From NCBI GenBank assembly GCA_964036045.1, contig OZ038380.1, forward strand, positions 65,022,591-65,086,590: DNA of 64,000 nucleotides. Reading direction: 5' to 3'. This document shows positions 1,186-60,342 of this stretch, one piece after another. Every line of letters starts with the position of its first letter. Position 1 is the first letter of the stretch. Both the position numbers and the translations under genes were made by a program. This stretch comes from Eutreptiella sp. 'Long Island Sound 2002' (Eukaryota; Euglenozoa; Euglenophyceae; Eutreptiales; Eutreptiaceae). Under the pieces are notes generated by a model. That model made no database searches, was not told the DNA's origin, and saw only the letters and a program-made list of their open reading frames with translations.

Positions 1186-1612
1186 TTAATCATCCTCCCG
1201 GACCAGCGTAGCACGATGGGGAAGGGCTCCAATGGCGTTTCCCACCATGAAGTGATACCCCATGATCATATCCCAATCTGTAATGTCGGCCACATAGAAG
1301 TTCCCGGATAGAGTGCTTCTCTTCGCCAAATCAGGGCGGTTCAAGCGCTCATGCTCCCAGAATTCCATACTGATAGTGGCCTCATGGGTGCCCCCACCCA
1401 TAATATCTCCATTAACCACCTTCAGGCGTACTGGTCTACGGCTGGGCTGCAGGAGTTCCTCCTTGAAGAACCCTCTCCGGACCAGGCTCACCTGGGCACC
1501 CGTATCCACCAAAACATCCACCACCAACTCCTCTTGTCCGCACCGTACACGCACCTTCAAGTGCAACTGCCGCTCGTCACCATGCGGTGTACGGACGACT
1601 CTCACGGCATGC
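1186..1612 (-). pseudogene. Element B retropepsin (aspartic protease) fragment
   Basis: Retroviral-type aspartic protease domain of the minus-strand Ty3/gypsy element B. The frame shows RQLHLKVRV, then the active-site motif VLVDTGAQVSLV, then a beta-strand pattern ending in WDMIMGYHFM, all matching the protease of the plus-strand copies at 35361-36191 and 54878-55708. It ends at an in-frame TAA (1186-1188). Its 5' part is missing here because the giant LINE (1613-25460) inserted at this point; the missing upstream codons are found at 25461-25772. Removing the LINE and one copy of the 16-bp duplication puts both halves in the same frame, which shows that the break is insertional. Confidence 0.88.
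1597..1612. repeat. 16-bp target-site duplication, left copy
   Basis: The sequence gactctcacggcatgc occurs here and again, without mismatch, at 25461-25476. It encodes residues of element B's Pol (HAVRV) and flanks the LINE on both sides. A duplication of this length fits target-primed reverse transcription by a LINE rather than an LTR or cut-and-paste element. Confidence 0.95.
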
Positions 1613-1633
1613 GGTTTGAGGTTTGAGGTTTGA
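1613..1633 (-). repeat. LINE 3' terminal simple repeat, three GGTTTGA units (plus strand)
   Basis: Three exact GGTTTGA units, then TTTT, directly follow the left target-site duplication. On the LINE's own strand this is a terminal TCAAACC repeat instead of poly(A). Several LINE clades end in short tandem repeats made during reverse-transcription initiation. The unit resembles no telomere repeat that I know to be standard. Confidence 0.85.
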
Positions 1634-3184
1634 TTTTGCGGGTACTAGACGCTTTTCGGCCCCGGGGGGCCACCTGGTCGGGCCAGGTGATATCCTCCCC
1701 ACCGGGTCCTAGTGGGGGGCCCTCCAAGACGCACCTCCTGCCTGGTGGCGGAGTCCCCCGGGTTCACAGAGCTCGGAGCCCCGTCCTTCCCCGGCGTCCC
1801 CGTTTCGCCACTCCCCGGTCAGTGCATCAATTCGCAGCCGTGGCCGCGGGCGCTTACCCACTGCGTCGCCCCCCTAATGCGTGGTCGCCCGGGGCACCGG
1901 CGCCGCCGGGCCCGTGCTACTGGCTTGTCGCCAGTGGGACCCCCTTGGGCTGGCGCGGTGGCTGCCTAGCCTAGGGGTTGGGGCGTGGCGCTGTGCGCGA
2001 CTACTGCCTTGGCGGGTGCAGTGTCCCGTCTGTGTGTGCGCGGCGCTCGCGGCCGGTTCGGGGGGGTTCAGGCCGGTACCTGGTGTTGTGTCTCCCCTTC
2101 TTCCCCCTTCCCGCCCCGCGTTTCCCGCGTTGCGTGTGGCGGGCCGTCTCGTCCGGGTGTCCCTTATCCTCGCTCGCTGGTACGCCATTCCATGTGGTCT
2201 GTGCGTTCCGCGCGCTCGGTCCGGTTGCCCTTCTGGTGGTCCCCGCGTGTCCTTTTCGTGTGTGTGCGCTCGCGCTCTCGCGGTGTCCGCTCCCCGCTGG
2301 GTGGTGTGGCGCGCGCATCTCGCGTGGTCCCGGCACTGGGCGCTGGTAGGGCCGTTCCATGTGGTCCGTGCCCCTCCGCGTGTCCTGCCCCGGTCCCGTG
2401 CTCCGTCTGGCGTGCTTGGGGGGGGGCGGTCCGGTCCCGGTTCCCCCCTACTTGGCTTGGGGTTGCGGGGGCGGCGGCTGGGCGTCCCCGGGGGGGTGCC
2501 TTCGTCCGTTGCGTGGGGCGTGGGGCGTTCCTCTTCCCTCATCTGCCCGTCCACTAGGTGGGCTGTCGGGGTCTGCGTTGCGGGCGTGCGGTTGTGGGGG
2601 CCCCGCTCTGTTCTTGCTGGGGGGGAGAGAGGTGTCGTCTTGGTGTCCAGGCGCCGGCCCGCCGGATTCTCATGACGAGCCTGATGCGCACGGAGCTTCG
2701 CCCTGCGGGATGCGTGGGGGGGTTGGGGTGACCGTGGCTGGAGTGGTGCTCCAATTTCCCGGTTCATGGCCCAGCAGAGCAGCCCTACCGCGGGCTTACT
2801 CTTAGCACAGGGGGAGGGGGTTGCGGGCGCGTTTGTTCTGTGACCCGGGTGCCAGTGTATCTCAGAAGGCAGCCGCCCCGGAGGTAGCGCACCAGGCGCG
2901 CGCCGCGAAGGAGCTGGTTCGAACCCCGGGATCGGTGGTCTCCCACCGATCCCTTCGAATACCGGGCGCGGCCTCCCATCGACCTGTTTGAGTACAGGTG
3001 ACGGTGCGCACTGCTGCAGGGGTGGGTGGTTCCCATGTCTTTTGTTTTTCTTGGGTGGGGGGTAAAACGAACGAGACCTCCACCCGATCCACCGGTATCG
3101 GTGGTGGCGCGAGTTGCTGGAGGGGGGGGTGGTTCCCACGTCGCCAACTAGAGAGCTCTACGTGCAGGGATCCCAGGAGCACCA

Positions 3185-3250
3185 ACGCCCGGGATCGAAC
3201 CCCCGCACTGGACGATTGAAGACAGACGCTCTCACTACTGGGCCGCGGGA
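3185..3250 (-). other. tRNA-like (pol III A/B-box-like) segment in the LINE 3' region
   Basis: On the minus strand this stretch shows a D-arm-like block (GGCCCAGTAGTGAGAGC) followed about 30 bases later by a T-arm-like block (GGGGGTTCGATCCC, 3191-3204 on the plus strand), the spacing seen in tRNA genes. The anticodon stem does not pair convincingly, so it is not called as a tRNA gene. A second B-box-like motif, GGTTCGAACC, lies at 2916-2925. Possible explanations are a tRNA-derived relic, a SINE-like 3' module, or chance in GC-rich sequence. Confidence 0.25.
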
Positions 3251-3513
3251 GTCTCTTACGCCACTGAGGGGTGTCGTCGGCTATGAATCCAGTCCTGAGG
3301 GCGGGTCTGTGCGCCGTGAAGCGTGTTGCGCGTGCCGGGAGGCCTCAGTCCACGCGCACGGGGTCGGGACAGGGGGGGGGGCTGGCTGGGGTGCGTTGGA
3401 TCGCCGACTGACGTGCACAGGGGTAAGAGGCGGGCAGTAGCACCACCGGGTCGCCGACTGACTGTAGGGCGGGGGGTCGCTCTGCCTCTTTCCGTCCCTC
3501 TGCCTTCCCTGGG

Positions 3514-5540
3514 CAGGCAACAAAGCGGGCGTCACTGGCGTTGCGCTGTCCATGGGGGGCGCGGCCCCCCATACCACTCCGGTTCGTGTTCACCCAGCCT
3601 CTCCGGGTACGATCTGTGCGGCGTCCCGGTGCGCAGGCGTGGGCCCGCTTGTTCTTCGCGGCCCCCTTGTGGGCCGGCGGCCGGAGCGGGGGGGCGGGTC
3701 ACACTCCGGCCCCCCTCTCGCGTGGGGGGGGGCCATCCCCCTTGCCTCGGGGGGGGTGTCGCGCTGCGGCCTCCCCGCTCTCGTTCCGGGCGGCGGCCTG
3801 CGGTACCCCTTTCTGGCCCTCCCCTCCGGCGCGCGCGTGCGGTCGGGGCTGAAGTGCCGCCCCGGGGCGGGGGGGGGTGAGGGGCGGCCCGTGGACCGCT
3901 CCCCTGGGGGCCCCGGCTGACCTGCAAACCCCCCCTCTGTCCCCTCGGAGTGGGCTGTGGTCACGGGAGGGTCATGTGGGGCGCGGCCTCCTTCGTGTTC
4001 CGTTGTGCGCGTTGCTCCGGCACGCCGGTGTGGGCTCGTGGGGGCAGGTCCAGCCGCCGTTGCCCTTACCGTGTCGCCGTTCCTCCTGTGGGTGGGGGCG
4101 CCCCCCCGGCCCTGGGGGGGCGGAGGGCCGCGCCTGTGGCTCCCCAGCTGGGGTGGGTGCGGGGGGGGGGGGGGGGGCGCCACCCCGCTCGCCCTGGGGC
4201 CTGTGTGGGAGGGGGGGGGGGGGGGAGTGGGGGGGGTCCTTCGGTTCCCTGGCGATGCCCCCTGTCGGCCTAAAGGGGGGGGGGGGAGGGCGGCTTGGCG
4301 GTCCCGGCCCCGGGGGCCAGCCATCGGCCAGGGGGGTCGCGCCCTTCCCCCGCCCCCCTCTACCGAGTGCCGGATCCTCACGCAGTCCCTCCCTGGGGCC
4401 CCTCATCCCCCGGCCGTTGCCGCGCGGCGCTAGCCGGCCGGGGGTGGCCGTGAGGGTCAGCGGTCAGTGGTTAGCGGGTTGCGGGGCCGCTTTCCCCGGG
4501 TAGGCAACAAAGCGGGCGTCCCTTGGTGTCGTGCTGTCCATGGGGGGCGTGGCCACCCATACCATTCCGGTTCGCGCCCACCCAGCTTCTCTGGGTACGA
4601 TCTGCGCGGCGTCCCAGTGCGCAGGCGTGGGCCCACTTGCTCTTCGCGGCCCCCATTGGAGCCGGCGGCTGGGGCGTCGGGGCGGGTCACACTCCGGCTC
4701 CCCTCTCGGGCGGGGGGGTCCGTCCCTTCAGCCTCGGGGGGTGGGGGCCGGGGCCCCTGCGGCTGGCGGGTCGGTGGGGGGGCGGGGGGGGGGGGGTGTC
4801 GCGCCGCGGCCTCCCTGCTCTCGTTCCAGGCGGCGGCCTGTGGTACTCCTTCCTGGCTCTCTCCGCGTCGCCGGTGCGCTCCCTTCCGGCGCGCGCTTGC
4901 GGTCGGGGCTGAAGTGCCGCCCCGGGGTGGGGGGGGTGAGGGGCGGCCCGTGGACCGCCCCCCTGGGGGCCCCATCTGACTTGACACCCTCCCTTCGTCA
5001 CCTCGGAGCGGGCTGTGGTTACGGGAGGGTCATGTGGGGCGCGGCCTCCTTCCTGCTCCGTCATGCGCGTTGCCCCAGCACGCCGGTGTGGGTTCGCGGG
5101 AGCAGGCCCAGCCGCCGTTGCCCGCATTGCGCCGCCGTTCCCCCTGAGGGGGGGGCGCCCCCCCGGCCCTGGGGGGGCGGAGGGCCGCGCCTGTGGCTCC
5201 CCTGCTGCGGTGGGTGCGGGGGGGGGGGGGGGGCGCCCCCTCGCCCGCCCCCGGGTCTGTGCGGGGGGGGGGGTGGGTTGGGGGGGGCCCTTTGGCCCCC
5301 TGGCGATGCCTCTCGTCGGCCGTGGGGGGGGGGGGCGGGGGCGGCATGGCGGCCCCGGTCCCGGGGGCCAGCCATCGGCCAGGGGGTCGCGCCCTTCACC
5401 CGCCCCCCCTATCGAGAGCTGGATGCCCGCGCAGGCCCTCGCCGGGGCCCTCACCTCCCCGGCCGTTGCCGCGCGGCGCCGGCCGGCCGGGGGTGGCCGT
5501 GGGGGTTAGCGGTCAGTGGTTAGCAGGTTGCGGGGCAGCC
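3514..5540. repeat. Direct duplication of a ~1-kb unit in the LINE 3' region
   Basis: Copy one starts at about 3514 (aggcaacaaagcgggcgtc) and copy two at about 4501 with the same words. The order is the same in both: ATGGGGGGCG box, TACGATCTG box, GCAGGCGTGGGCCC box, G-runs, CCATCGGCCAGGGGG box, and finally GGTCAGTGGTTAGC at 4462 and 5511. The offset grows from 987 to 1049 bp because of indels in G-runs. The copies are clearly diverged, so the duplication is not recent. Confidence 0.85.
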
Positions 5541-5682
5541 GGTTCCTCCCCGCGCTTGTCGCCCCCGCACTCCCTCCCGCGGGAGGCGGCGCGTCCCCGC
5601 ACGTCGTGCCATACCGTGGGGGGGGCGTGGGTCAGGGGGCCCATCCCCCCCCCCAACCCTCCCGTACCCGCCGTCTGGGCCT

Positions 5683-7768
5683 TCACTTGCGCCGCCGCTT
5701 GCGTGGGGGCTGGGGCTGCGGCGGCGGCGGGTTGTGCCGGCGGTAGCGCCAGTGGGCGAGGGCGCTACGCAAAGCCCGGGGGAGCCAGTTGTTGGCGTCC
5801 GCATCCGTGATGCGGAGCACCGCTCCCCCCTCCAGGAAGGCCGGCCACGTCGGCTCCCTGTCGGGCCACGCCGCCCGGATCACTGACCTGAGGACCCTCT
5901 CGTGGTCCTCTGGGGCCGCCCAGGCCCCCCGGGGGTGCCTCTCGGTTTCCTCCATCCCTCCGGAGGAGCACGGCATCGAAGGGCCGGTTCCGCGACCTCC
6001 TGGAGGTCCCCTGGTTGGCCCAGCACAACCACCCGTACACTTCCCCCGCCAGGGGGAGGGTCTCCCCCCCCAGCGGGTCCGGGACTGCGCCCCAGTCCAC
6101 GTTCCACGGCCGGCTCTCCTCCGCCCCCCGTGCCGGCCCCCCTCGCTGCTCCTGCACCTGCGGCGCCGATGCCACGCCCCGTCCCCCCTCCGCCGAGGCC
6201 ATCCGCGCCGGCTCCGCCCTCGGCGCGGGGGGGGCTTGCTGGTGCTGGTGTCGTGGGGGTTGGGGGGGGACGAGCTCGCCGGCGTCAGGGTCGATGTTGT
6301 AGAGGTGGTGGTGGTGGTGGTGGTGGTGGTGGTAGGTGTGGTGTGCCGGCATCTGTTGGATGCCGGGGGGGATGCACCTCACCGGCTGCACGTCCGGCTG
6401 CGGGGGTGCTCCGCCCTCTGCCCCCCTCCCCCCGCCCCGCCCTCCCCCCTGGGCTCCCATGCCCCGTCCCTCCTGCCCCTTGGGGCCCTTGCCCTTGCCC
6501 TTGCCCTTGCCCTTGGGCCCCTTTCCGGTCCCGTGCCCGTGTCGCGGGTCCCGCCTCTCGTCCCCCACGCCCTGGCCCGCTCGCTCTCCCATCCCCCCTT
6601 GTCCTGCCCCCTGCGCCTGGGTACCCTTCCCGCGCCCCTGTACACCCTTCCCGTGCCCTGGCCCCTCCCCGACCCCCTGCCCGGGTCGCGGGTCCCGCCT
6701 CTCGCCCACCACGCCCCGGCCCGCTCGCTCTCCCACCTCCCCTCGCTCCGCCCCCTGTACCTGGGCCCCCTGCCCGCGCTCCTGCGCGCCCTTCCCGTGC
6801 CCCGACCCCTCCCCTGCCCCCTGCCTGTCACGCCGTCCGCCGCTCCCCTCCCCCTCGCCCCTGCGCCCTTCCTGGACCACTCGCCGGGCGTCCCGCTGCC
6901 TTTGCCGTTGCGGCAGCGTGACGCCCGGCGGCGAGCGCTCGCGCGCCGGGGGGCGGACGTGCCGCTCCCGCCCCGGGGGGAAGGGCTTGGGGGGGTACGG
7001 CTTGGGGGGGCTGGTGTGGGTGTGGGCGGGGTTGGCGTGGGCGCGGTACTTCGCGCTCTCCCTGCCCACTGCTGCTGCTGCGGCGGCCGCCGGCGAGGCG
7101 TCCGCGGCCCGTGCGGGGTTCTTCCCCCGCTTGCGCGGCGTGCCAGGGGCCGCAGCCCCTCTCGCGCCCTCCGCACTCTCCTTCGCTGCCGCGGCGGCCG
7201 CCGACGAGGCGCCCGTGGCCGCGGTCGCAGACCCTCGCACATCCTCCTCGGTCTTCTCTGCTGCCGCGGCGGCCGCCGGCGTGGCGCCCACGGCCCGTGC
7301 GGGGTCCGTCGCAACCCCTCTTGCGCCCTGCTTGCACTCCTGCGCGGCTGCGGCAGCCCTCGGCGACGCGTCCTGCTCCTGCGCCGGGGCTGCCCCCCTT
7401 GCCGGCGGAGTGCCGGGGGCCGCGGCCGGGGCCGCGGCGTGGCTCGCCGCGGTCTCCGCCTCCTGCGCGTCAGGGCGGGGCGGGGCGGCGGGGCTGGCCG
7501 CTTGGGCGGCGGGGGCGGCCGTCTCGGCTGGCCCAGGTTCCCGGGCCGGCGGCGGCGGCCCGACCACCGCCGCCTCCGCCAGCCTCCGCTCCTCGCGCTC
7601 CGCGAGGGTCTCCCCCGTCCACTCTGGGGAGGAGACGGGGGAGCGGGAGCGGGACCGGCGGTGGTGGCGGTCGTCCCGCCCGAGGGACCCATCGGAGTCT
7701 GCCATCACTGTTACTCTGGTAGGCATGCGTGGTGGCAGGCGCGCCCTTCCCACTACCTCCTGGTGCAT
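5683..7768 (-). CDS. LINE ORF6: low-complexity basic protein, probably with one frameshift near its end
   Basis: The ATG at 7766-7768 overlaps the ORF5 stop as TGATG, a typical termination-reinitiation arrangement; a second ATG (MADSDGSL) follows at about 7704. The 667-codon frame shows, in order: an Arg/Ser-rich start (RRSRSRSP), three or more imperfect Ala-rich repeats of about 30 residues, a Gly/Arg/Glu-rich repeat of about 50 residues present twice, GKGKGKGKG, a run of ten histidines coded by a GGT tract (plus strand near 6305-6335), and a more complex segment with PWNVDWGAVPDPLGGE. Downstream of about 5970 the convincing frame changes: 5683-5976 in another frame reads as ordinary protein (VLRSVIRAAWPDREPTW, NNWLPRALRSALAHW) and ends with a lysine/arginine tail. 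I infer one indel or a programmed shift near 5960-5976. Function unknown; an RNA- or chromatin-binding role is only a guess from composition. Confidence 0.6.
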
Positions 7769-9000
7769 CAGTGCCGTGCCGTGGGCAGTGCCGTCTGGTG
7801 CTCTGCGGGGGGGGGGGGGGGAGGGGGTGGGGGGCCGGTTGTGGCGTCAGCCCCGCACGGCCGGGGGTCCGCGGCCATCCACCGGCATTGGGAGGGGAGG
7901 CGGGGGAGCCACGCGGCCCACGCGTCGCGCCACAGCTCCCAGTCTGGGGCGGGGCTCAGGGCCCTGGGCCCCCGGGGGTCGTCGAGCGGTGCCGGGGGCA
8001 GCCGCACCAGATGGACCCCCGTAACGGCGGTGACCTCCTGTGCGCGCAGGAAGGTGTGTACTCCGTCCCGCGCCGCGGGCGCCGGGAGGGGGGGGCGGGG
8101 TACGGGTGTGGCCCCATAGAGGTGGGTGGGGGTGATCCCCATGATCCGCCCCGGGCTCCCGCGGGACGCGACGACGAGGAGGAGGAGGGGGGTGCCAGGG
8201 CACTCTTGCCAGAGGACCTGCCCCCTGTGGTGGGCACCCCTGGTCCTGGAGAGGGGGGGGGACAGGTCTGGGTTAGCCCAGCCGCGGGGCGCGTGCGTTG
8301 CCGGTGGGAGGGCGGGGCACCAAGTGGGCTCCCTGGGGAACGCCTCGTAGACGACGGCGTACGGGGGGGTAGGCCCGGTGCCGTCATACACCGGGTTGGT
8401 CGGCCGGGGGCGGGCGGACGCCTCGTCCGCGCCTTCCACGAACACCGTGACCTCGCCCACCTCCAGGTCCTCGTCCGGCGGGTGTAGAAGGTGGAGCGCC
8501 GCATCCAGCTCGGACACTCCCCCCGGGTACGTGGCCCGCGCCTGGTTCAGGTACGGGGCCGCGTCCCCGGGGTAGCGCGTCCTGAGGGCGTGCAGCAGGG
8601 CTGGGGCGCTACTGCGGAGGGACATGGCAGACCCCGCTCCCGTCAGCCGGAGGGCGTCCCCCATGGACAGGGGCCGGCCCGACCGATTGGACTCGCGCCA
8701 CTCCATCCAGTGCCCGCAGAGGGCCGCTTCCGGGCTGATGAGCCCCGGCCAGACGGCGTTCACAATCCGGTGCATTGCCGGGAGCAGCGTAGGGGCCCCC
8801 GCTCCGTTCAGGGCGCGGACGGCCGGGAGGGCGGTCTCGTTGAGGAAGGCCCTCGCACTGCCCTCCAGGTCGCACCGTGCGGCAGCGTGCGCTCCTTTTG
8901 CCTCCGCCACCGCGTCCGCCACCAGGCCCCGGACGGCCGCCTCCTGCGCTCTGCGGCGGGCCCTGGTGTGCCCCGGCCCATCCCCCCGTCGGCGTGGCAT
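7768..9000 (-). CDS. LINE ORF5: unknown protein, 410 residues
   Basis: An ATG-started ORF in the same frame as ORF1 to ORF4, 39 bases after the ORF4 stop. It begins with a basic stretch (MPRRRGDG, RARRR), followed by an alpha-helical Ala-rich segment, then a folded-looking middle (VTVFVEGADE, YAVVYEAFPREPTW, GTPLLLLVVASRG, GITPTHLYG) and a proline-run C-terminus (about nine P) before the TGA at 7768-7770. I see no catalytic motif or zinc site and do not recognise a family. The absence of internal stops over 1.2 kb is not by itself strong evidence in DNA this GC-rich, but the ordinary amino-acid composition, shared frame and TGATG link to ORF6 support a real protein. Confidence 0.65.
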   Translation of the reverse strand: MPRRRGDGPGHTRARRRAQEAAVRGLVADAVAEAKGAHAAARCDLEGSARAFLNETALPAVRALNGAGAPTLLPAMHRIVNAVWPGLISPEAALCGHWMEWRESNRSGRPLSMGDALRLTGAGSAMSLRSSAPALLHALRTRYPGDAAPYLNQARATYPGGVSELDAALHLLHPPDEDLEVGEVTVFVEGADEASARPRPTNPVYDGTGPTPPYAVVYEAFPREPTWCPALPPATHAPRGWANPDLSPPLSRTRGAHHRGQVLWQECPGTPLLLLVVASRGSPGRIMGITPTHLYGATPVPRPPLPAPAARDGVHTFLRAQEVTAVTGVHLVRLPPAPLDDPRGPRALSPAPDWELWRDAWAAWLPRLPSQCRWMAADPRPCGADATTGPPPPPPPPPAEHQTALPTARH

Positions 9001-9039
9001 GGTGCTGCAGGCTCTGCAAAGGGCGGCCGCGGGTGGGGG

Positions 9040-10218
9040 TTAGGGGGCGAACACGTGCGACAGGTGCGCAATGGATGTGGGGTCCCGCAGGTGCACGTGG
9101 ATCCACAGAAGGGCAGCGCCCGCGGGGCCCGCCTGTTCGTGTGAGGGGGTGTGTGCCCCCTCGATGCGCCGGTGCAAGGCCTCCTCCTCTGTGCGCCTGC
9201 GCGGACCTGCGGGAGGTTCGGGCCAGGGGCACGCGGCTACCTGGGTGCACCGCTCGCACCTGTTGGCGCCTGTCGCTGCTGCGGAGGACACCGTGTCACA
9301 CTCTCCGCAGAGTCGGCAGGTGTGTGGGAGGTGGGAGGGCGGCGACCAAGGGTCGAGATGGCGGAGCCAGAGGTCGTCCCACCTCTGTCGGAGGGGGTCC
9401 CGGATCTCCAGCAAGCGGGCGCGGACGCGGCGCCGGTAGTCCTTGCCAAGCGTCTTCCGCTGGACCTCCTGCCACGTGTCGCCGGGGAGGATCCCGTGGT
9501 CGTGGAAGGCGGCGATGAGGTCGTCCCACGCCGGGCGGGGGTGCCCCTGGGGGGGGCTCGCCATGTACACGTGGCGCCCGGTGAGGTGGGGCGTCAGCGC
9601 GTCCCATTGGCACCCGTTCGCGGTGTCCCTGTGGAGGAGGGCCAGTAGGGTGCCGTCCGCGACTGCCTCCCACCCCGTTCGCAGCCCTTCGCAGCCGTCC
9701 AGCTCCTGGCGCAGCGCGGCTGCGATACCGGTGGGGAGCATGAGGAGTAAGGGCCCCTGGGTGTCGCCCAGCCGGGACAGGGCGTCGTCGTATACCGGCC
9801 CCCCCGCTTTGAAGTGCGCCACGGTCAGTTGGGTGGCCCCGTCCTCTGGGGGTTGCCACCGGACGGTGGCCGCAGCGTGTCCCCACGTGCGTATCTCCGT
9901 GGCCCGGAGCACGTTGGCGGTGTGAAGGACGATGCGGGGCGGGACGGGCGTCCTGACGAGTGAGGATACGTCCCCAGTCCATCCCGTTTGCGGCCCCGGG
10001 GCCGCCTGCAGCCATTCCCCCGTCGCCGCGTCCCACGGGTGGTCAGGTCCCGCCCCGCGGACCACGGTGGGTCTCGGCCGGGTGTCCGGCCCCCACCCCC
10101 GGAGCGGGATGGCGGCGTATCGTTGCGCAGGGGTCTCCGGGGCGCGCGTGGCAGCGCACCACCGGCCCCACTCCCGCGCCCACTCCTCCCCCACGATGCG
10201 CGCCTCCCATGCGGTCAT
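9040..10218 (-). CDS. LINE ORF4: unknown protein with a zinc-ribbon-like cluster, 392 residues
   Basis: It starts with ATG 39 bases after the ORF3 TAA (10258-10260) and stays in the frame of ORF1 to ORF3; the spacer itself translates as plausible protein (FPPWIIGRGS). The sequence has normal composition with several hydrophobic strands (PLLLMLPTGIAAAL, GTLLALLHRDT) and near residues 299-322 a CRLCGECD...CERC cluster, four cysteines in two CxxC pairs like a zinc ribbon. It ends in TAA at 9040-9042. No family recognised. It could be the downstream end of a readthrough polyprotein or a separate accessory protein translated by reinitiation. Confidence 0.65.
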   Translation of the reverse strand: MTAWEARIVGEEWAREWGRWCAATRAPETPAQRYAAIPLRGWGPDTRPRPTVVRGAGPDHPWDAATGEWLQAAPGPQTGWTGDVSSLVRTPVPPRIVLHTANVLRATEIRTWGHAAATVRWQPPEDGATQLTVAHFKAGGPVYDDALSRLGDTQGPLLLMLPTGIAAALRQELDGCEGLRTGWEAVADGTLLALLHRDTANGCQWDALTPHLTGRHVYMASPPQGHPRPAWDDLIAAFHDHGILPGDTWQEVQRKTLGKDYRRRVRARLLEIRDPLRQRWDDLWLRHLDPWSPPSHLPHTCRLCGECDTVSSAAATGANRCERCTQVAACPWPEPPAGPRRRTEEEALHRRIEGAHTPSHEQAGPAGAALLWIHVHLRDPTSIAHLSHVFAP

Positions 10219-10257
10219 GGAGCCGCGCCCGATGATCCACGGTGGGAAAAGGGCGTC

Positions 10258-15735: not shown

Positions 15736-18700
15736 TCAGCTATCCCGCGTCGGCATCGCCGCCGGGTTCGCTGGTGCCGCCAGGGCATCTGGGTGCGCCG
15801 CATCCGCTGAGCCCGTTCCCAGCGGGGCCCACAAGGGGGCCCGGGGGACCGGGGGAGTCAGGGGGGCCAGGGGGGCCAGCCCCGCGGGGATGGACATGGA
15901 CCCTGGTGGGGCCGCACCGCCGGCCCCCGGGGCCGCTCCGGGTGCCTCCTCACCTCCATCTGCGTGGTCGGCTGCCTGGGGCGGGGGGCGCCGGGTGTAC
16001 GGGGCGTGCCACGGGGACCTCCGTGCTCTCCCCTGCAGGATGTTGGCGGCCGCCTCCTTGTCGTCCGCCGGGGCCGCAGCGTGCACCGCATGCCACGCCA
16101 GGTGTTCGAGCATCGCCCCGCTGGTGTAGTACTTGTCCGCACACAGGGGGCATTTCGTCGGCTCCGTGGCCCCTCGCGCCGGGGGGAGCTGCACTGACTT
16201 CCGAATGGCGCCCTCCGCCGCTGGTTCGAAGGGCAGGTTGGCTAGCGGCACCGTGTGTGGTGCCAGCGTGCGGCCCGGGGCCGCCGCATCGAGTGCTCGC
16301 GTCGCGGGCGCGGGCCCGAGGCCTCGGGCGGCATCGCGCTGCGCGTCTGCTTGCAGCCACGTTTGCCAGTGCGTGGAGCCGATTTGGCGGTCGGGTTTGC
16401 TCCTCCACCGCAGGTCGTGGAAGGCCTGTAGCCAGTGGTACACCGTGGTCGGGACCGCCAGCTGGAGCTTCAGGTCGGCGGAGTGCGCCGCTGCCGGCCA
16501 CACTCCCGGCCTCGCCGCCCGAGCGTTGTCCTTCAGCCTGACCTGGAGCAGGAGGGCGTGGTGTTCGCCCTCCCGCAGCGCCTTGATGATCATGCGTGTG
16601 CAGTCTGCCACGCGGATCACGGCTTCGGGCCCCGGCAGGCGTTCAGGGTCGCAGACGACGACGTGCGCGTCCGCCGGGCTGAACATGCAGACCACCCACT
16701 GTGGGTTCTGCTGCCCCCGTTGGGCCACCGCCAGGGTAGCCGCTGGGCGGGCGTGCGTGATGGGCCCCGCGTGGAGGTCCGGGACGTCCGTGGCCCTGAT
16801 GGCGTCTCCCTGCCACGCGGCCCGTAGATGCTCCTCCTGGTCGGGGCTCCACACCAGTGTGGGGGGGTTGACCCACCCCGGTTCCTGCCTCTTGTTGGGG
16901 GCGCTGACAGTGTGCAGCAGGACCGCCAGCGGCCAGGGGTCCGCCGACATGTAGTAGGCCTGGGTGGGGCCCTGTCGCCAGTCGACGTGGGACAGGGGCG
17001 GGAATGCCCCTTGCCTGGCGGTGCTGTGCCAGACCGCCCATCGGCCTCCGGCCAGGATGTGCGACCGGTACCCTCCGGCGTGGCCGTGTACGATGGCTTG
17101 GTAGCCTGCCGTCTGCAGTACCAGCGCCTCCCCCTGCTTAGGCCCGGGCGGGGGTGCGCCATCGCCCGCACCCCAGACGCGGGTGCGCCCGCGGAGTGTG
17201 GTATGCCACGGGTCTGGTGCATCGCGCTGGGGCCCTTGTATGCATCCCGCAATTTGCGCCCGGCCGTGGTGGTGGACGAAGCTCTCCCCGCCGTCTGCTA
17301 GCAAAGCCGCCGCGACGACGTATAGTTGCTCCGCCGTGAGGGGCGCCGTCGGCTCGTGCGTCACGGCCGGCCGTCGGGGCCGCGTGTCGCGGCAGGGGAC
17401 GTGGGGCAGCAGCTGCGCCGGCCACGCCGCCACTGGACCCATGGTGACGGCCGCGACCGCGGACGCCAGCGCCGTGCGGTCCGTGGGTCTGTACTGCCGG
17501 AGTCCCGTGGTATCTCGGGTGAGGTGCCTGCAGGCTGCCATCCAGGCTACCGCTCCGCAGTTCGTGCAGTCCGGCTCGGCACCGCTCGCATCGTCGCCTC
17601 CCCACTGCTGTACCGTGGTGGCGGTGTCGAGCGGGGGGCCCCGCTGTAGCGCCTCCGGGCCCTGCCCCGGCGGGAGGGCGGGCGGGATTGGCTGCGGGTA
17701 GTTTTGCGCGCCCCGGCGCTCCGGGTGCGTGTGGTACGGGTTCTGCCGGCGGTGTTCCGGGGCTGCCCGTGGCTGGAAGAGGAGCTGGTGCAGGTACCAG
17801 TGGCCCTCCGCGGCGGACGGATTGCGGAGCGTTAGCCACTGTTCCACCACGCCTCCTGGGTGCGCGGCCTCGACGCGGCGCTGCAACCCCAGGCGGCCCA
17901 GGCGGTTGGACGTGCCCGCGGGTGGGATGTGTGCCTGCGGGTAGAGCACCCGCAGCGGCTCCAGCGCCAGGTCCAGCACTTCGTCCTTGAGCTGCTTCGT
18001 GAGGGCCGACGCCCTGTGTAGGGCGTGGAGGACCCCGGGTGTGGGGGCCGTGAGCTGTTCGAGCACCGGTCCCGGCGGGTACCGCGTACCCGGGTTCGTC
18101 AGCCACTCCCTGGTGTGGCTCAGTACGGCTTTCCACACGTCCCTTGTAAAGGCGTGCCGGGGGGCCAATGAGGGGACCATCCGTAGGAGGCGGTGGCACG
18201 CCGGCGGCGACCGCATGGGCTGTGGGGCGGCCGCCGTGATCCACCTGCACGCCGTGCCGGGCACGATCGCCCCCCATTCCACGGTCCCCATGCCCTCGGC
18301 ATGAATCAGCGCCTGGCCTTGGACCATGGGGAAATAGGGGCTCGAGCGCCCCTTCCCTTCCCTCCACCGTACCCAGGCGGCCCCCGCCTGCAGGCTGCGG
18401 AGCAGGGCCACGCCGGGGAGGGGCGGCTGCGGGAAAGCCCCCTTGACGGCCTGGGTGGCGTGGGCCAAGGTGCCCATTGGTAAGTACCACAACGGGAGGG
18501 TCCAGGGGCCCGGCAGTGGTTGCGCCACCCCTGCGTCCCATCGCCACTCGGAGTCTGGCGGGGCGGCCGGGACCGTGCCCGTCTGCAGGAAGTGGCGTGC
18601 ATACTTGTCGGGGTGCCGTTGGAGGGTTGCCGCGAGGCTGAGCCCCTCTGCCGCTGGTGCCACCGGGAGGCCGCCCCGGGGCCTGCGCCAGGGGTATTCC

Positions 18701-19431
18701 TGGTCGGCCGGCCAGGTGTGGAGGTCCCGGGCGATGTCCTCCGCGGTCCCTGTGGGGGCGTCCTCTGGTGCCAGGTGCCACATGACGGCGAGCACCGCCC
18801 ATGTGGAAAAGGGCCACGCCCGCGGGGGGGTGTACACCTGGATGGTCCACTGTGGGCACGCCCGCCGCACGCGGGACACGTGGAGCACCCCTCGGACCAT
18901 GTCCGCCGCCAGGACCAGCACCATTCCCGAGGGATCCACAATGATCCCCTCTGCGGGTCCACCGTGGCGGCCCCGGGTTTGCAGGGCCACCGCCGCCTGT
19001 CCCGCGTGGGTGACGCGGTCAACGGCCTCCTGGATGTTCACGCTGCCGCTCGCGGTCTCATCCAGGATCCATCCCTGCGTCACCCCGTAGCGTAGGGCGG
19101 CGCGTGCGGCCGCGGGTTTCACCTCGGGCAACGCTCCGTCGTCTGCATCGGGCTGGGGGTGCTGTTTGGGGCACCAGCCTTCGCCGGTGCAATGGCCCCG
19201 TTTCCACGCGGGGCAGATCGCGGATACGCTGCCCGCCGGCGGCGCCGGTTCCGCGGGCGCGCCCCCCGTGGGGGGCTCCGGCACTGCCTCCAGGTCGGAG
19301 TCTGTGCCCGTGTCCTCTTGTGGGGGGTCTCCTTCGCCGTCTCTGAGTCCCAGCGCCCTGATGACCTCGTGTGCTTCGTCCAGCGTCGGAGATCGGGGGC
19401 GTGTCTTGCGTGGTGCCGCGGGTTTCTCCAT
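15736..19431 (-). CDS. LINE ORF1: Gag-like protein with CCCH and C2H2 zinc fingers and a C19-peptidase-like region
   Basis: The chosen start is the ATG at 19429-19431 (MEKPAAPRK), because an upstream in-frame ATG at 19536 lies in the last, degenerate array unit. Numbering from 19536: a CCCH finger C-X7-C-X5-C-X3-H at residues 108-126, then a long folded region. Around 659-673 there is an NCGAVAWMAACRHL segment, resembling the NxGNTCYMN box of ubiquitin-specific (C19) peptidases but with Ala at the nucleophile position. Around 811-860 come YQAIVHGHAGGYRSH, GGRWAVW and AYYMSAD, like the C19 histidine box. A C2H2 finger CX2CX12HX3H lies near 1128-1148. It ends in TGA (15736-15738), directly followed in frame by the endonuclease. 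LINE ORF1 proteins bind the element RNA, which suits the fingers; the peptidase-like call is tentative. Confidence 0.8.
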   Translation of the reverse strand: MEKPAAPRKTRPRSPTLDEAHEVIRALGLRDGEGDPPQEDTGTDSDLEAVPEPPTGGAPAEPAPPAGSVSAICPAWKRGHCTGEGWCPKQHPQPDADDGALPEVKPAAARAALRYGVTQGWILDETASGSVNIQEAVDRVTHAGQAAVALQTRGRHGGPAEGIIVDPSGMVLVLAADMVRGVLHVSRVRRACPQWTIQVYTPPRAWPFSTWAVLAVMWHLAPEDAPTGTAEDIARDLHTWPADQEYPWRRPRGGLPVAPAAEGLSLAATLQRHPDKYARHFLQTGTVPAAPPDSEWRWDAGVAQPLPGPWTLPLWYLPMGTLAHATQAVKGAFPQPPLPGVALLRSLQAGAAWVRWREGKGRSSPYFPMVQGQALIHAEGMGTVEWGAIVPGTACRWITAAAPQPMRSPPACHRLLRMVPSLAPRHAFTRDVWKAVLSHTREWLTNPGTRYPPGPVLEQLTAPTPGVLHALHRASALTKQLKDEVLDLALEPLRVLYPQAHIPPAGTSNRLGRLGLQRRVEAAHPGGVVEQWLTLRNPSAAEGHWYLHQLLFQPRAAPEHRRQNPYHTHPERRGAQNYPQPIPPALPPGQGPEALQRGPPLDTATTVQQWGGDDASGAEPDCTNCGAVAWMAACRHLTRDTTGLRQYRPTDRTALASAVAAVTMGPVAAWPAQLLPHVPCRDTRPRRPAVTHEPTAPLTAEQLYVVAAALLADGGESFVHHHGRAQIAGCIQGPQRDAPDPWHTTLRGRTRVWGAGDGAPPPGPKQGEALVLQTAGYQAIVHGHAGGYRSHILAGGRWAVWHSTARQGAFPPLSHVDWRQGPTQAYYMSADPWPLAVLLHTVSAPNKRQEPGWVNPPTLVWSPDQEEHLRAAWQGDAIRATDVPDLHAGPITHARPAATLAVAQRGQQNPQWVVCMFSPADAHVVVCDPERLPGPEAVIRVADCTRMIIKALREGEHHALLLQVRLKDNARAARPGVWPAAAHSADLKLQLAVPTTVYHWLQAFHDLRWRSKPDRQIGSTHWQTWLQADAQRDAARGLGPAPATRALDAAAPGRTLAPHTVPLANLPFEPAAEGAIRKSVQLPPARGATEPTKCPLCADKYYTSGAMLEHLAWHAVHAAAPADDKEAAANILQGRARRSPWHAPYTRRPPPQAADHADGGEEAPGAAPGAGGAAPPGSMSIPAGLAPLAPLTPPVPRAPLWAPLGTGSADAAHPDALAAPANPAAMPTRDS

Positions 19432-19499
19432 TGCTATGTCGCTGTGTCTAAGAGCAGGGGGCGGGGTGCGGATGTCCCGTGGCTGGTGCGTTGGTGCGT

Positions 19500-22400
19500 T
19501 GGTGCGTTGCTCGGTGTGGGGGCGGTGGATGGGCATCCCCGGGGGGGCGCCTTCCAGTGTTGCGAGGGGCGTCCGGTGTTAGGCGCTGTCCCTCCCCCGG
19601 CCGCTCGTCCTCCGGAGCGTGCAGCCAGGGTGCCGCGACCCGCGTGTCCCGGGCGCGGTCGATGCGGGCAGTGGACCCTGCACCGGCCCCACAGCGTGTG
19701 CCCTTGCGGGCCGGCGTTGCTCGCTGTGGGGGTGGCGGGAGGGCGTCCCCGGGGGGGGGTGCCTTCCACCGTTGTGAGGGGCGCCTGGTGTCAGGCGCTG
19801 TCCCTTCCCCGGCCGCTCGTCCTCCGGAGCGTGCAGCCAGGGTGCCGCGACCCGCGTGTCCCGGGCGCGGTCGATGCGGGCAGTGGACCCTGCACCGGCC
19901 CCACAGCGTGTGCCCTTGCGGGCCGGCGTTGCTCGCTGTGGGGGTGGCGGGAGGGCGTCCCCGGGGGGGGGTGCCTTCCACCGTTGTGAGGGGCGCCTGG
20001 TGTCAGGCGCTGTCCCTTCCCCGGCCGCTCGTCCTCCGGAGCGTGCAGCCAGGGTTCCGCGACCCGTGTGTCCCGGGTGCGGTCGATGCGGGCATGTGGA
20101 CCCAGCACCGGCCCCACAGCGTGCGCCCTTGCGGGCCGGCGTTGCTCGCTGTGGGGGTGGCGGAAGGGCGTCCCCGGGGGGGTGCCTTCCACCGTTGTGA
20201 GGGGCGCCTGGTGTCAGGCGCTGTCCCTCCCCCGGCCGCGCTCGCCCTTCGTAGCGTGCAGCCAGGGTTCCGCGACCCGTGTGTCCCGGGCGCGGTCGAT
20301 GCGGGCGTGTGGACCCAGCACCGGTCCCACAGCGTGCGCCCTTGCGGGCCGACGCTGCTCGCTGTGGGGCTGGCGGAATGGCGTCCCCGGGGGGGGTGCT
20401 TTCCACCGTTGTGAGGGGCGCCCGGTGTCAGGCGCTGTCCCTTCCCTGGCGGCTCGTCCTCCGGAGCGCGCAGCCAGGGTTCCGCGACCCGTGTGTCCCG
20501 GGTGCGGTCGATGTGGGCGTGTGGACCCAGTACCGGCCCCACGGCGTGCGCCCTTGCGGGCCGGCGTTGTTCGCTGTGGGGGTGGCGGAAGGGCGTCCCC
20601 GGGGGGGGCCGCCTTCCACCGTTGTGAGGGGCGCCTGGTGTCAGGCACTGTCCCTCCCTCGGCCGCTCGGCCTCCGGAGCGTGCAGCCAGGTTCCGCGAC
20701 CCGCGTGTCCCGGGCGCGGTCGATGCGGGCAGTGGACCCAGCACCGGCCCCACAGCGTGCGCCCTTGCGGGCCGACGCTGCTCGCTGTGGGGGTGGCGGA
20801 AGGGCGTCCCCGGGGGGGGTGCCTTCCACCGTCGTGAGGGGCGCCTGGTGTCAGGCGCTGCCCCTCCCCCGGCCGCTCGTCCTTCGGAGCGTGCAGCCAG
20901 GGTTCCGCGACCCGTGTGTCCCGGGTGCGGTCGATGCGGGCGTGTGGACCCAGCACCGGCCCCGCAGCGTGCGCCCTTGCGGGCCGGCGTTGCTCGCTGT
21001 GGGGGTGGCGGAAGGGCGTCCCCGGGGGGGGTGCCTTCCACCGTTGTGAGGGGCGCCTGGTGTCAGGCGCTGTCCCTTCCCCGGCCGCTCGTCCTCCGGA
21101 GCGTGCAGCCAGGGTTCCGCGACCCGTGTGTCCCGGGTGCGGTCGGTGCTGGCGTGTGGACCCAGCACCGGCCCCACAGCGTGCGCCCTTGCGGGCCGGC
21201 GTTGCTCGCCCTGGGGGTGGCGGAGGGGCGCCCCCGGGGGGGTTGCCTACCACCGTTGTGAGGGGCGCCTGGTGTCAGGCGCTGCCCCTCCCCCGGCCGC
21301 TCGTCCTTTGGAGCGTGCAGCCGGGGTTCTGCGACCCGTGTGTCCCGGATGCGGTCGATGCGGGCGTGTGGACCCAGCACCGGCCCCGCAGCGTGCGCCC
21401 TTGCGGGCCGGCGTTGCTCGCTGTGGGGTCGGCGGAAGGGCGTCCCCGGGGGGGGTGCCTTCCACCGTTGTGAGGGGCGCCTGGTGTCAGGCGCTGTCCC
21501 TTCCCCGGCCGCTCGTCCTCCGGAGCGTGCAGCCAGGGTTCCGCGACCCGTGTGTCCCGGGTGCGGTCGGTGCGGGCGTGTGGACCCAGCACCGGCCCCA
21601 CAGCGTGCGCCCTTGCGGGCCGGCATTGCTCGCTGTGGGGGTGGTGGAAGGGCGTCCCCGGGGGGGGGTGCCTTCTACCGTTGTGAGGGGCGCCTGGTGT
21701 CAGGCGCTGTCCCTCCCCCGGCCGCCAGTCCTCCGGAGCGTGCAGCCAGGGTTCCGCGACCCGTGTGTCCCGGGTGCGGTCGATGCGGGCGTGTGGACCC
21801 AGCATCGGCCCCACAGCGTGCGCCCTTGCGGGCTGGCGTTGCTCGCTGTGGGGGTGGCGGAAGGGCGTCCCCGGGGGGGGTGCCTTCCACCGTTGTGAGG
21901 GGCGCCTGGTGTCAGGCGCTGTCCCTCCCCCGGCCGCTCGTCCTCTGGAGCGTGCAGCCAGGGCTCCGCGACCCGCGTGTCCCGGGCGCAGCTGATGTGG
22001 GCGTGTGGACCCAGCACCAGCCCCACAGCGTGCGCCCTTGCGGGCCGGCGTTGCTCGCTGTGGGGGTGGCAGAAGGGCGTCCCCCGGGGGGCTGCCTTCC
22101 GCCATTGTGAGGGGCGCCTGGTGTCAGGCGCTGTCCCTCCCCCAGCCGCTCGTCCTCCGGAGCGTGCAGCTAGGGTTCCGCGACCCGCGTGTCCCGGGTG
22201 CGGTCGATGCGGGCGTGTGGACCCAGCACCGGCCCCACAGCGTGCGCCCTTGCGGGCTGACGTTGCCCGCTATGGGGGTGGCGGAAGGGCGTCCCCGGGG
22301 GGGGTGCCTTCCACCGTTGTGAGGGGCGCCTGGTGTCAGGCGCTGTCCCTCCCCCGGCTGCCCGTCCTCCGGAGCGTGCAGCCAGGGTTCCGCGACCCGT

Positions 22401-23440
22401 GTGTCCCGGGTGCGGTCGATGCGGGCGTGTGGACCCAGCACCGCCGGCCCCACAGCGTGCGCCCTTGCGGGTTGGCGTTGCTCGCTGTGGGGGCGGCAGA
22501 AGGGCGTCCCCGGGGGGGATGCCTTCCGCCGTTGTGAGGGGCGCCTGGTGTCAGGCGCTGTCCCTCCCCCGGCTGCTCGTCCTCCGGAGCGCGCAGCCAG
22601 GGTTCCGCGACCCGTGTGTCCCGGGTGCGGTCGATGCGGGCGTGTGGACCCAGCACCAGCCCCACAGCGTGCGCCCTTGCGGGCCGGCGTTGCTCGCTGT
22701 GGGGGTGGCGGAAGGGCGTCCCCGGGGGGGGTGCCTTCCACCGTTGTGAGGGGCGCCTGGTGTCAGGCGCTGCCCCTCCCCCGGCCGCTCGTCCTTCGGA
22801 GCGTGCAGCCAGGGTTCCGCGACCCGTGTGTCCCGGGTGCGGTCGATGCGGGCGTGTGGACCCAGCACCGGCCCCACAGCGTGCGCCCTTGCGGGCCGGC
22901 GTTGCTCGCTGTGGGGGTGGCGGAAGGGCGTCCCCGGGGGGGGCTGCCTTCCACCGTTGTGAGGGGCGCTTGGTGCCAGGCGCTGTCCCTCTCCCGGCCG
23001 CTCGTCCTCCGGAGCGTGCAGCCAGGGTTCCGCGACCCGTGTGTCCCGGGTGCGGTCGATGCGGGCGTGTGGACCCAGCACCGGCCCCACAGCGTGCGCC
23101 CTTGCGGGCCGGCGTTGCTCGCTTTGGGGGTGGCGGAAGGGCGTCCCCGGGGGGGGCTGCCTTCCTCCGTTGTGAGGGGCGCTTGGTGCCAGGCGCTGTC
23201 CCTCCCCCGGCTGCCCGTCCTCCGGAGCGTGCACCCAGGGTTCCGCGACCCGCGTGTCCCGGGTGCGGTCGGTGTGGGCGTGGGGGCCCGGCACCGGCCC
23301 CACAGCGTGCGCCCTTGCGGGCCGGCGTTGCTCGCTGTGGGGGTGGCGGAAGGGCGTCCCCGGGGGGGGTGCCTTCCACCATGGTGAGGGGCGCTTGGGG
23401 TCAGGCGCTGTCCCTCTCCCGTCTGCCCGCCGACTGCCGG
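19500..23440 (-). repeat. Tandem array of about 18 units of 212 bp, upstream of LINE ORF1
   Basis: The marker word cttccaccgt (with variants) recurs at 19551, 19763, 19975, 20186, 20400, 20613, 20823, 21035, 21247, 21459, 21672, 21884, 22096, 22308, 22523, 22735, 22948, 23161 and 23373: 18 intervals of 210-215 bp, mean about 212. Each unit holds a C-run/G-run box, CAGGCGCTGTCCCT, CGTCCTCCGGAGCGTGCAGC, GGTCGATGCGGGCGTG and GTTGCTCGCTGTGGGG. Both ends are degenerate. The array lies just 5' of ORF1 in the transcript direction, where mouse L1 carries promoter monomers of about the same length, so I infer a promoter/5' UTR array. Units are usually 212 bp, not a multiple of three, so the long frames seen inside are not a repeat protein. 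Confidence 0.92.
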
Positions 23441-24494
23441 GTGGGTTGCCGGGGTTCGTTGGGTGTGTGCGGTGTGTGTGGTATCTGTGCCGTGCGTGTC
23501 GTGGTGCGTGGTGCTGCTCTTTCCTTGGTCCTCCGGTGCTCCCCTCTCCGGTGTCTCGGTGCGGTGTTGTGCTCGCCGTGTGCCCGCCGTGTCCCCTCCT
23601 CTGTGTGCGCCCCTTGCTCGTTCGCTGGCTACCCCTTGTTCCTTTCGCGGCTTCGTTGCTCTTTACCCTTTCCTCTACTCCTCTCCCTGGCATGCACTTT
23701 TTCCGTGCCTCCGCTTTGTTGCGTGTCTCTGTCTTTTTCCTTGTCGGCCCGGGCTTCCTCTTTTGAACCTGCGTAGGGAGAGAAAGGTGCGTAAACAAGC
23801 GTGGGGCGGCGGCGGTTTTGTCGCGACACGGCACCTCGAGCTGGCTGGTACGTCATGCGACATTCGTGTGCGACCGGCTTGCGTGTAGGTTTATCGCCCC
23901 ACTTGTTCCCGGCTTGTCTCCACCCCCCTTTGGTCGCTACCTTTTCTCGTCGCCCGTTCCGCGCGCGCGGCGTGACATGCAACATACCTGCCTCTTTCCC
24001 CACTACCTTAACGTGTCCTAGTCCTCCCGCCTTGTCGGGCGTTCGCTTATGTGTGACGACAATACTTGCCTAAGCGTCTAAGACAACCCTACTTTAACGC
24101 CCGGACGACGCAGACACGAGCATACGCTTCTCTTCGGGACCTGTGAGGATAGAACATGGGTGCGTGCACGTGTGTTTGTTGGGACCCGGCACTCGCCGGC
24201 GCTATGCTATTTGTGTGTTTGCTCCCCATGTCCCCCTCCCTGGCTATTTGTGTGTTCTAACCCACGCAACTCCGCGGTTGGCGACGTGGCACGACATGGT
24301 AACATACTTGCGTTCTTGGTGGCGGTGTGTGGCTTGTCTACTATTCGTTTGCATGCGGCGGCATACCTTTTGTTCCCTTTCGCTCCCTTTCGCCTCCTAC
24401 ATAAGCGGGCGTGCGGGTGGGCGGTGGGCACGTCTCGGTTACGTAGCGTAGCGTGGCAACATACTTGGACCCCACTAGTCACGTGTGTATGCTT

Positions 24495-24527
<33 letters not shown>

Positions 24528-25460
24528 TTTTTTTTTTGTGTTGTGCTTTACCTCGCTTGTCTTTTTGTTCCTCCCCGTTTGTCCCTTCATACCATGTTGC
24601 TCGTCCGTGGCGGTGATGGCCTTGCGGCGTTCCGGGCATGCGCGTGCGGGCATACCTTTCTTTCCCTATGTGAGCGGGGGTGAGCATAGGCGTTCTTTCG
24701 GTGCCACCTCTTGTTGGTTTTCCTTGCCGGTGCGGTTTTCGTTGCGCTTTTCGTGGCGGCGCACTTTGGCGTTGTTTGACACGTTACTTGTTTTGCGCTT
24801 GTTACGGCGTTATGCACACAACATATGGCACATAACATACTTGCTTTCCGGCGGCCGGTGGCGTTGTTGTTGCTTGTGCCTATTTTTCATGCACGACATT
24901 CAACATACTTGGGTACATGTGCGGCCTCTTGTTCTTTTTGTTGTGATCCCCTTCGCGCGTATTTCCTACATGAGCGGGCTTGCATTGCTTGGTCGTGTAC
25001 TTGTGGTATATCTCCACCGTGGTGCGGTTCGTTACCTATTTATTCTCCTTGTCTACCTCTTTCCGCGTTGTGCTTGTTTCGTTGGCTTCTAGCGGTGCGC
25101 GGCACATAACATACTTGCTTGTCGGCGGCCGGTGGCGTTGTTGTTGTCTATGTGTGGGTTGTTTTGGGGCGCGCACAAGTCCCTAGCGCCTAGGGCACGC
25201 ACGTTGCTAGGTGGTTTGGGGCAAGCAACGCTCAGTTTCTTCTCCGTCGCGACTCTATTGTTCGTCTTTTTCGGTGAGTGTCCTATATTTTGCGACCTCG
25301 CCAAACAGCGGCATAAAATTGTTGGGGGGGTTTCTGACGTCGGAAAAGACGATTTTTCGCTTTATTTCTGCTGGCGGTGCGTCTTTTTCTCGTACTTTTA
25401 TTTTTCTTCTGCTTCGATCGCGCGACTGTCCGTGTTATGCCAGCACCCCAAACCCGGTGT
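23441..25460 (-). other. LINE 5' terminal leader, AT-richer and without a clear gene
   Basis: Between the array and the right target-site duplication. It is less GC-rich than the rest of the element. The word AACATACTTG occurs at 24301, 24458, 24834, 24902 and 25108, and longer similar blocks (ATAACATACTTGCTT..CGGCGGCCGGTGGCGTTGTTGTTG) occur at 24832 and 25106, so it looks like a decayed repeat. A T30 tract starts at 24497. I see no convincing protein. It probably contains the transcription start or upstream promoter part of the LINE. Confidence 0.55.
24497..24537. repeat. Long T tract (T30, G, T10)
   Basis: An uninterrupted run of 30 T (24497-24526), one G, then 10 T. On the LINE strand it is poly(A). 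It may be a slipped mononucleotide run or the remnant A-tail of something captured in the leader; the sequence alone does not decide. Confidence 0.9.
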
Positions 25461-25476
25461 GACTCTCACGGCATGC
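25461..25476. repeat. 16-bp target-site duplication, right copy
   Basis: Exact second copy of gactctcacggcatgc (first copy 1597-1612). Here it is the end of the upstream half of element B's protease region (ELHAVRV). Confidence 0.95.
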
Positions 25477-30500: not shown

Positions 30501-30564
30501 GCCTGCTTGCTTGCGCGTGTCCACCGCAGCGTCCCGTGGCCAGGCCCCCCACGGGAACGCGTCA
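27558..30564 (+). repeat. A1 5' LTR
   Basis: 3,007 bp, TG...CA, matching 41770-44783 throughout with scattered substitutions. The first ~290 bp (GGCCCGGAGGCCTGTGAGCC repeated twice, then CCCTGTTCTCTAACCCG) and the last ~690 bp are shared with the A2 LTR; the 2-kb middle (about 27850-29870) is not. The middle is AT-rich with TATA-like stretches near 28310-28350. No credible gene inside. Confidence 0.92.
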
Positions 30565-60337: not shown

Positions 60338-60342
60338 CCGTC
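60338..60342. repeat. Target-site duplication of the small LTR element, right (CCGTC)
   Basis: Second copy of CCGTC; the RNase H coding sequence of A2 resumes here. Confidence 0.92.

Follow-up and report, generated by a model that had tools for sequence, protein, structure and literature searches.

A stretch of 64,000 nucleotides from the euglenophyte Eutreptiella sp. 'Long Island Sound 2002' (contig OZ038380.1, positions 65,022,591 to 65,086,590), here termed the window, carries on its minus strand a real and unusually large long interspersed nuclear element (LINE) with a third, orphan open reading frame (ORF). This is very probably a full-length insertion of a giant LINE of the apurinic/apyrimidinic (AP) endonuclease type (APE-type) into the protease region of a Ty3-like element, brought about by target-primed reverse transcription. 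The insertion is delimited as follows:

1613..25460, minus strand: inserted element, 23,848 bp (19,930 bp without its monomer array), with an in-frame empty site that aligns across the junction
1597..1612, no strand: low-coordinate copy of the target-site duplication, an exact 16-bp match adjoining the 3' end of the element
25461..25476, no strand: high-coordinate copy of the duplication, an exact 16-bp match adjoining the 5' end of the element

An initial annotation, made from the sequence of the window, had described an exact 16-bp duplication around one minus-strand unit, a monomer array and simple-repeat tail within this unit, and restoration of the frame of the host element upon its removal, all of which were confirmed. 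No third match to the 16-bp repeat occurs in the window with up to three mismatches, and the same scan detected no further copy inside the element. However, at least two matches at this level were obtained in 13/100 shuffles, and the window is rich in repeats, with 7,810 different 16-mers present more than once. The repeat alone thus proves little, and it is its position that constitutes the proof. In 200 pairs of similarly sized zones drawn at random, the longest exact run in common was 11 bases. An empty site was constructed by script, by joining the flanks, retaining one copy of the repeat and reading the minus strand. The resulting frame is open for 240 amino acids, with the junction at amino acid 98, and the peptide aligns to two other Ty3-like elements in the same window, at 35496-36071 (47 % amino acid identity; E 1.4e-49) and 55013-55573 (47 %; E 2e-47), the join being free of gaps in both alignments. 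As this alignment provides an independent picture, both chance and misassembly are unlikely. Self-comparison revealed no repeat of at least 100 bp linking both ends of 1613-25460, and hence no long terminal repeats (LTRs). The interval represents one insertion. For the array, the 2-kb segment at the 5' end and the 3' untranslated region (UTR) of ~4 kb, the evidence that they belong to the element is confined to there being one duplication and no internal target-site copy.

Six ORFs were distinguished in the initial annotation, and these are referred to below as annotated ORF1 to ORF6. On comparison with related proteins they resolve into three:

15736..19536, minus strand: ORF1, 1266 amino acids from the first ATG, which lies at the inner edge of the array
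9040..15735, minus strand: ORF2 (annotated ORF2, ORF3 and ORF4), with in-frame stops at 12247-12249 and 10258-10260
5683..9000, minus strand: ORF3 (annotated ORF5 and ORF6), ~1104 amino acids in relatives (P0079)

Three protein searches yielded 67, 135 (the best 120 listed) and two relatives, all from ENA contigs. All 189 listed relatives were aligned by script, with 20/189 containing no piece above the cut-offs and left unassigned. They are encoded on contigs of 158 different sizes (249 Mb summed), among which five near-equal pairs may point to one assembly being present in two versions; copy numbers may therefore be inflated. Annotated ORF1 to ORF5 form one frame split by single stop codons, with annotated ORF6 in another frame. 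The stop between annotated ORF2 and ORF3 (12247-12249) is an arginine in 18/18 aligned relatives, while 59/60 relatives read on at the stop between annotated ORF3 and ORF4 (10258-10260; Q in 56, and H, R and E in one each), the remaining one diverging earlier. At the stop between annotated ORF4 and ORF5, fourteen relatives end (thirteen with the exact HVFAP ending), two read through and one is partly aligned. Three relatives align across the stop between ORF1 and ORF2, with two reading on with another residue and P0029 lacking the stretch, and no fusion of ORF1 and ORF2 was found with a 3400-residue query, which matched two proteins, both ORF2. This stop may be normal in young copies; if it were not, the ORF count of the family would be two.

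Neighbouring annotated ORFs are joined in single proteins in every pairing (ORF1/ORF2 in 8, ORF2/ORF3 in 19, ORF3/ORF4 in 56, ORF4/ORF5 in 25 and ORF5/ORF6 in 25 of the 189), and since these proteins come from many contigs the 13.9-kb coding block can be considered one unit. For example, P0188 (2181 amino acids; 99 % identity), which represents a 90 % cluster of 438, extends from the ATG at 15585 to the stop between annotated ORF4 and ORF5, while P0079 joins annotated ORF5 and ORF6 into 1104 amino acids and represents a cluster of 171. P0071, representing the largest cluster (1049 sequences), is limited to the C-terminal half of ORF2, and the cluster sizes of 1049 for this half and 438 for the whole ORF2 would fit 5' truncation without proving it. 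On the evidence of these predicted proteins, the family comprises three ORFs of ~1.27k (ORF1), ~2.2k (ORF2) and ~1.1k (ORF3) amino acids, and the window holds a damaged copy of this three-ORF element, broken in ORF2 and ORF3. The six ORFs thus exist as read, but their interpretation as six genes was rejected, as 3/5 breaks (the ORF2/ORF3 and ORF3/ORF4 stops and the ORF5/ORF6 frame break) are absent from the relatives. Likewise, the added 3' gene block proposed for annotated ORF4 to ORF6 had to be abandoned, given that annotated ORF3 and ORF4 correspond to the C-terminal portion of the endonuclease-reverse transcriptase protein (P0188) and annotated ORF5 and ORF6 a single ORF (P0079). The joining of all neighbour pairs upholds the coding block as one unit against separate insertions of annotated ORF1-ORF3 and ORF4-ORF6, and the giant LINE lineage that had been proposed is retained for this block, on the joined ORFs among the 189 proteins, but not beyond it.

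The codon signal of the shared frame is positive in 19/19 windows of 600 nt between 19400 and 8001, although it was trained partly on the same region. The frame of annotated ORF6 is the best of six in 4/4 windows, with a weak codon signal (-0.06 to 0.13). A changed genetic code as an explanation of the stops was rejected by inspection, with three such codons in ~3,500 and other residues in the relatives. No relatives of ORF2, the ORF3 protein or a Ty3 ORF were found in the viral contigs searched, of P0188 in the genome contigs searched, or of ORF2 in phages. The related copy P0066 begins as the endonuclease of the element and then changes to another endonuclease-like sequence, a pattern resembling the insertion of a second LINE into it.

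Domains and motifs could be distinguished along ORF2 as follows:

14923..15702, minus strand: AP-endonuclease domain (Pfam PF03372, Exo_endo_phos; E 4.8e-07), with motifs SWN, QET, GDTN and SDH
13093..13824, minus strand: reverse transcriptase (RT) domain (Pfam PF00078, RVT_1; E 4.8e-23), with YIDD within 13306-13326
11134..11529, minus strand: RNase H-like motif set (D-E-D-H-D), conserved in 17/18, 21/23, 26/26, 30/30 and 30/30 relatives
10747..10800, minus strand: CCHC zinc knuckle, weakly zf-RVT-like (Pfam PF13966; E 0.057, below the cut-off)
9247..9318, minus strand: four-cysteine zinc-ribbon-like motif near the C-terminus, conserved in 23/25, 23/24, 20/21 and 19/19 relatives

The endonuclease and RT named in the initial annotation are thereby supported by Pfam, while the RNase H it also named stands as a conserved motif set with no Pfam match at E values up to 10; an RNase H-like domain in ORF2 is likely. 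The AP-endonuclease is located N-terminal to the RT, with both encoded in the ORF at 12247-15585, and nearly all relatives spanning its catalytic residues retain them (N 7/7, E 27/28, D 39/39, N 37/39, D 38/41 and H 39/41). The SWN motif (15676-15735) is situated upstream of the first ATG of ORF2, and P0031, P0048, P0066 and P0189 start with a methionine just before it; in the window copy, ORF2 may make use of another start, or of none. The catalytic aspartates of the RT are likewise kept (44/45, 35/39 and 36/39 covering relatives). Ten PDB matches were obtained at E values below 0.01, seven named as R2 or LINE-1 and three under general RT names, which we take to be R2 and LINE-1 as well. The closest solved structures of the RT are thus those of R2 and LINE-1, with no telomerase among the matches at E values up to 0.5. 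The residues of the zinc knuckle are conserved in 45/45, 45/45, 44/46 and 44/47 relatives, and no restriction-like endonuclease was recognised in the C-terminal part of ORF2 by Pfam or PDB profile. Against NCBIfam, P0188 gave two matches only, both below the cut-off (group II intron RT and exonuclease III). AlphaFold2 models of annotated ORF5 and ORF4 reached predicted local distance difference test values of 36 and 34, respectively, too low to be informative. The PDB profile matches of query A1 (three, the best to PDCD5 at E 0.023) and query A2 (41, best E 0.00086) were judged to be due to chance; 37/41 of the latter start at profile positions 967-978 and many are tagged proteins, so that a His run is the probable cause.

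The third ORF encodes a protein without a Pfam or NCBIfam family match. In P0079 this protein is basic (pI 10.3), its second part is rich in G, A, P and R, and its HKRRR[KR] C-terminus is common to 6/189 proteins. The frame of ORF3 in the window copy is broken twice, each time at a homopolymer run (of 15 C and of G, respectively), and both breaks may be sequencing errors. The break at the G run, near the end of ORF3, is shared with P0077, which likewise finishes in the alternative frame; this suggests either variation of the run among copies or frequent misreading. At either edge of the ORF3 block lies a copy of a C-rich direct repeat of 13 bases (8975-8987 and 5638-5650).

ORF1 has no Pfam or PDB match, and its zinc-finger types are presumed from the patterns:

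19159-19215, minus strand: pattern taken to be a CCCH-type zinc finger
16090-16152, minus strand: pattern taken to be a C2H2-type zinc finger
17533-17577 and 16636-16674, minus strand: Cys and His stretches

A cysteine protease, for which a C...H...D pattern was considered, is not claimed, with the cysteine observed in just 2/2 copies and the aspartate variable (3/6).

The coding block is flanked by extensive non-coding sequence:

23422..25460, minus strand: 5' region of lower G+C content, 2,039 bp of non-monomer sequence 5' of the array
19504..23421, minus strand: tandem array of 212-bp monomers, 18.5 copies
1613..5682, minus strand: 3' UTR of ~4.1 kb, rich in G runs and without coding signal
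3502..5539, minus strand: ~1-kb tandem duplication within the 3' UTR
2464..2599, minus strand: 3' UTR stretch resembling the array at its upstream edge and in its first monomer (74 % over 144 columns)
1613..1633, minus strand: 3' tail of three 7-bp units, sense TCAAACC

The array includes eighteen full monomers of 210-215 bp, with 94-99 % identity to their consensus; the monomer unit of mouse L1 is ~200 bp. The 5' region differs from the rest of the element in its G+C content (0.549 versus 0.71-0.77) and CpG ratio (1.15 versus 0.79-0.87). It contains degenerate repeats ~270 bp apart, a sense-strand A tract (24497-24537; 41 bases, 95 % A) and six copies of the motif RACATACYTG, of which the window overall has seven where 0.19 would be expected. 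Within the 3' UTR, 4160-5350 holds many plus-strand runs of at least ten G, which are possible quadruplex formers. Rfam and tRNA scans gave no matches.

Target-primed reverse transcription is inferred from the endonuclease, the RT, the tail, the duplication and the lack of LTRs, as well as by analogy with known LINEs. In the proposed course of events, the RNA would start in the 5' region, with the array serving as a promoter reserve, and the long RNA would be coated by ORF1, with its zinc fingers, and ORF3, with its basic, low-complexity C-terminal part, the coating role of the latter being a guess. The AP-endonuclease of ORF2 would then nick the target and the RT would copy the RNA, presumably over its full length, from the repeat tail. 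The RNase H-like domain could remove the template, and repair of the staggered nicks would generate the 16-bp duplication.

Several points weigh against a giant LINE inserted at full length. The assignment of RNase H rests on motifs, and the evidence from sister copies consists of predicted proteins only, with no whole-length second copy and the cluster members not viewed singly. The 13-base repeat at the edges of the ORF3 block, while most likely due to chance, could be a trace of the gain of ORF3. Furthermore, a 24-kb cDNA is far above the traditional retrotransposon limit of ~10 kb (PMC6431247; this and the other papers are cited here from excerpts), and 'giant' denotes in the same source more than 20 kb of internal coding length, compared to a coding block of 13.9 kb here. 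Finally, the 5' 2 kb may not be native, given its differing composition and A tract. This last point underlies an unlikely rival, 5' transduction, in which 23422-25460 would be flank of the source copy, acquired from a transcript started upstream, and the element proper of ~21.8 kb would begin at the array. While the deviating G+C content and CpG ratio and the sense A tract are in keeping with such an origin, no copy of the target site occurs at the inner edge, and the segment has a repeated motif of its own, like a worn regulatory array.

An ordinary LINE core that grew after landing, through later insertions of the array, the ORF3 block and the 3' UTR, is improbable: the tandem blocks (the 212-bp array and the 1-kb duplication) and the C-rich repeat found at either edge of ORF3 might be so explained, but annotated ORF4 adjoins ORF5, and ORF5 adjoins ORF6, in 25/189 proteins each, and the first ATG of ORF1 lies inside the edge of the array. 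Still less credible, indeed barely so, is a misassembly in which unrelated repeats were joined between two Ty3 pieces. Highly repetitive DNA rich in G runs is hard to assemble, but the duplication is exact, the empty-site alignment is ungapped at the join and the same ORF order is found in proteins from many contigs. A different question is whether the giant LINE belongs to a named clade (Dualen/RandI, I-group/Tad1 or L1-like) and is remarkable for its length only, for which the chances appear evenly balanced. Such elements usually comprise an APE, an RT, RNase H-like motifs and a zinc knuckle, as found here, whereas ORF1 and ORF3 match no family.

Among the known systems closest to the giant LINE are the APE-type LINEs with RNase H (the I group, plant L1 and Dualen/RandI), which according to passages of PMC4640811 share with it an AP-endonuclease and an RT of LINE type, together with RNase H-like motifs, a zinc knuckle, the target-site duplication, the repeat tail and the lack of LTRs. 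It differs from them in its size of 23.8 kb, in ORF1 and ORF2 of ~1.27k and ~2.2k amino acids, respectively, and in a third ORF downstream of the RT. LINEs typically contain one or two ORFs (PMC2881922, in excerpt), a layout from which the three ORFs of the relatives depart. While Dualen/RandI combines an AP-like with a restriction-like endonuclease (PMC4640811), the second of these was not recognised here. Tandem monomers upstream of ORF1 are shared with mouse L1 (PMC6454616, PMC9022269), and repeats of this kind are also described from other genomes, in positions other than the 5' end (PMC6454616); unlike in mouse L1, the array here is not at the extreme 5' end, with 2 kb of other sequence outside it. 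The Drosophila telomere LINEs HeT-A, TART and TAHRE similarly have a long 3' UTR and sequence common to the 5' and 3' non-coding parts, with perfect non-terminal repeats in TART (PMC5537684), whereas here only ~144 columns at 74 % are shared, and the element is located within another element and has a third ORF.

Very large size has precedents of other kinds. The Terminons of bdelloid rotifers are giant retroelements of up to 40 kb with extra ORFs (PMC6431247, PMC5537684, PMC5718144), but these are Penelope-like (Athena) and telomeric, some with a GIY-YIG-like endonuclease, in contrast to the AP-endonuclease and internal 16-bp duplication observed here, where both element ends lie inside a Ty3-like element. 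Ogre (25 kb) and Burro are LTR elements with another integration route (PMC6431247). That 2019 review names transcript length, RT processivity and packaging as the presumed bounds on retrotransposon length; in the excerpted parts its giants are LTR, Penelope-like and DNA elements, with the non-LTR class appearing for short L1 transductions. No description of a LINE of at least 20 kb was recognised in the open-licence literature, which is weak evidence; the search was in part poorly aimed. A 23.8-kb LINE insertion with one clean duplication and hundreds of related ORFs presents a case that at least doubles the ~10-kb limit, and RT processivity and the role of ORF3 become directly testable. Somewhat short of an even chance, we consider it possible that this lineage is the largest LINE known, inserting normally at a full length above 20 kb, with ORF3 and the enlarged ORF1 allowing one RT to copy a transcript twice the supposed limit, and with the internal array and related 3' UTR stretch as a new way to keep a promoter through truncation-prone copying.

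Elsewhere, the window contains two Ty3/chromovirus-like elements of ~17 kb each, at 27558-44783 and from 47269 to the window end at 64000, with RT, RNase H, integrase and chromodomain matches spread across their ORFs. The first is bordered by LTRs of ~3 kb (27558-30564 and 41770-44783; 96 % alike). The Ty3 ORF containing the RT at 55721-58006 also shows a weak match, below the cut-off, to a Dam-type N6-adenine methyltransferase (E 0.0018). A direct duplication of 629 bp (57896-58523 and 59711-60338; 98.6 %) is found around minisatellites with units of 15-36 bp at 59334-59684. Furthermore, four related LTR-like stretches each contain about two tandem copies of a 41-bp unit, at 27577-27655, 41789-41870, 47288-47366 and 63743-63824.

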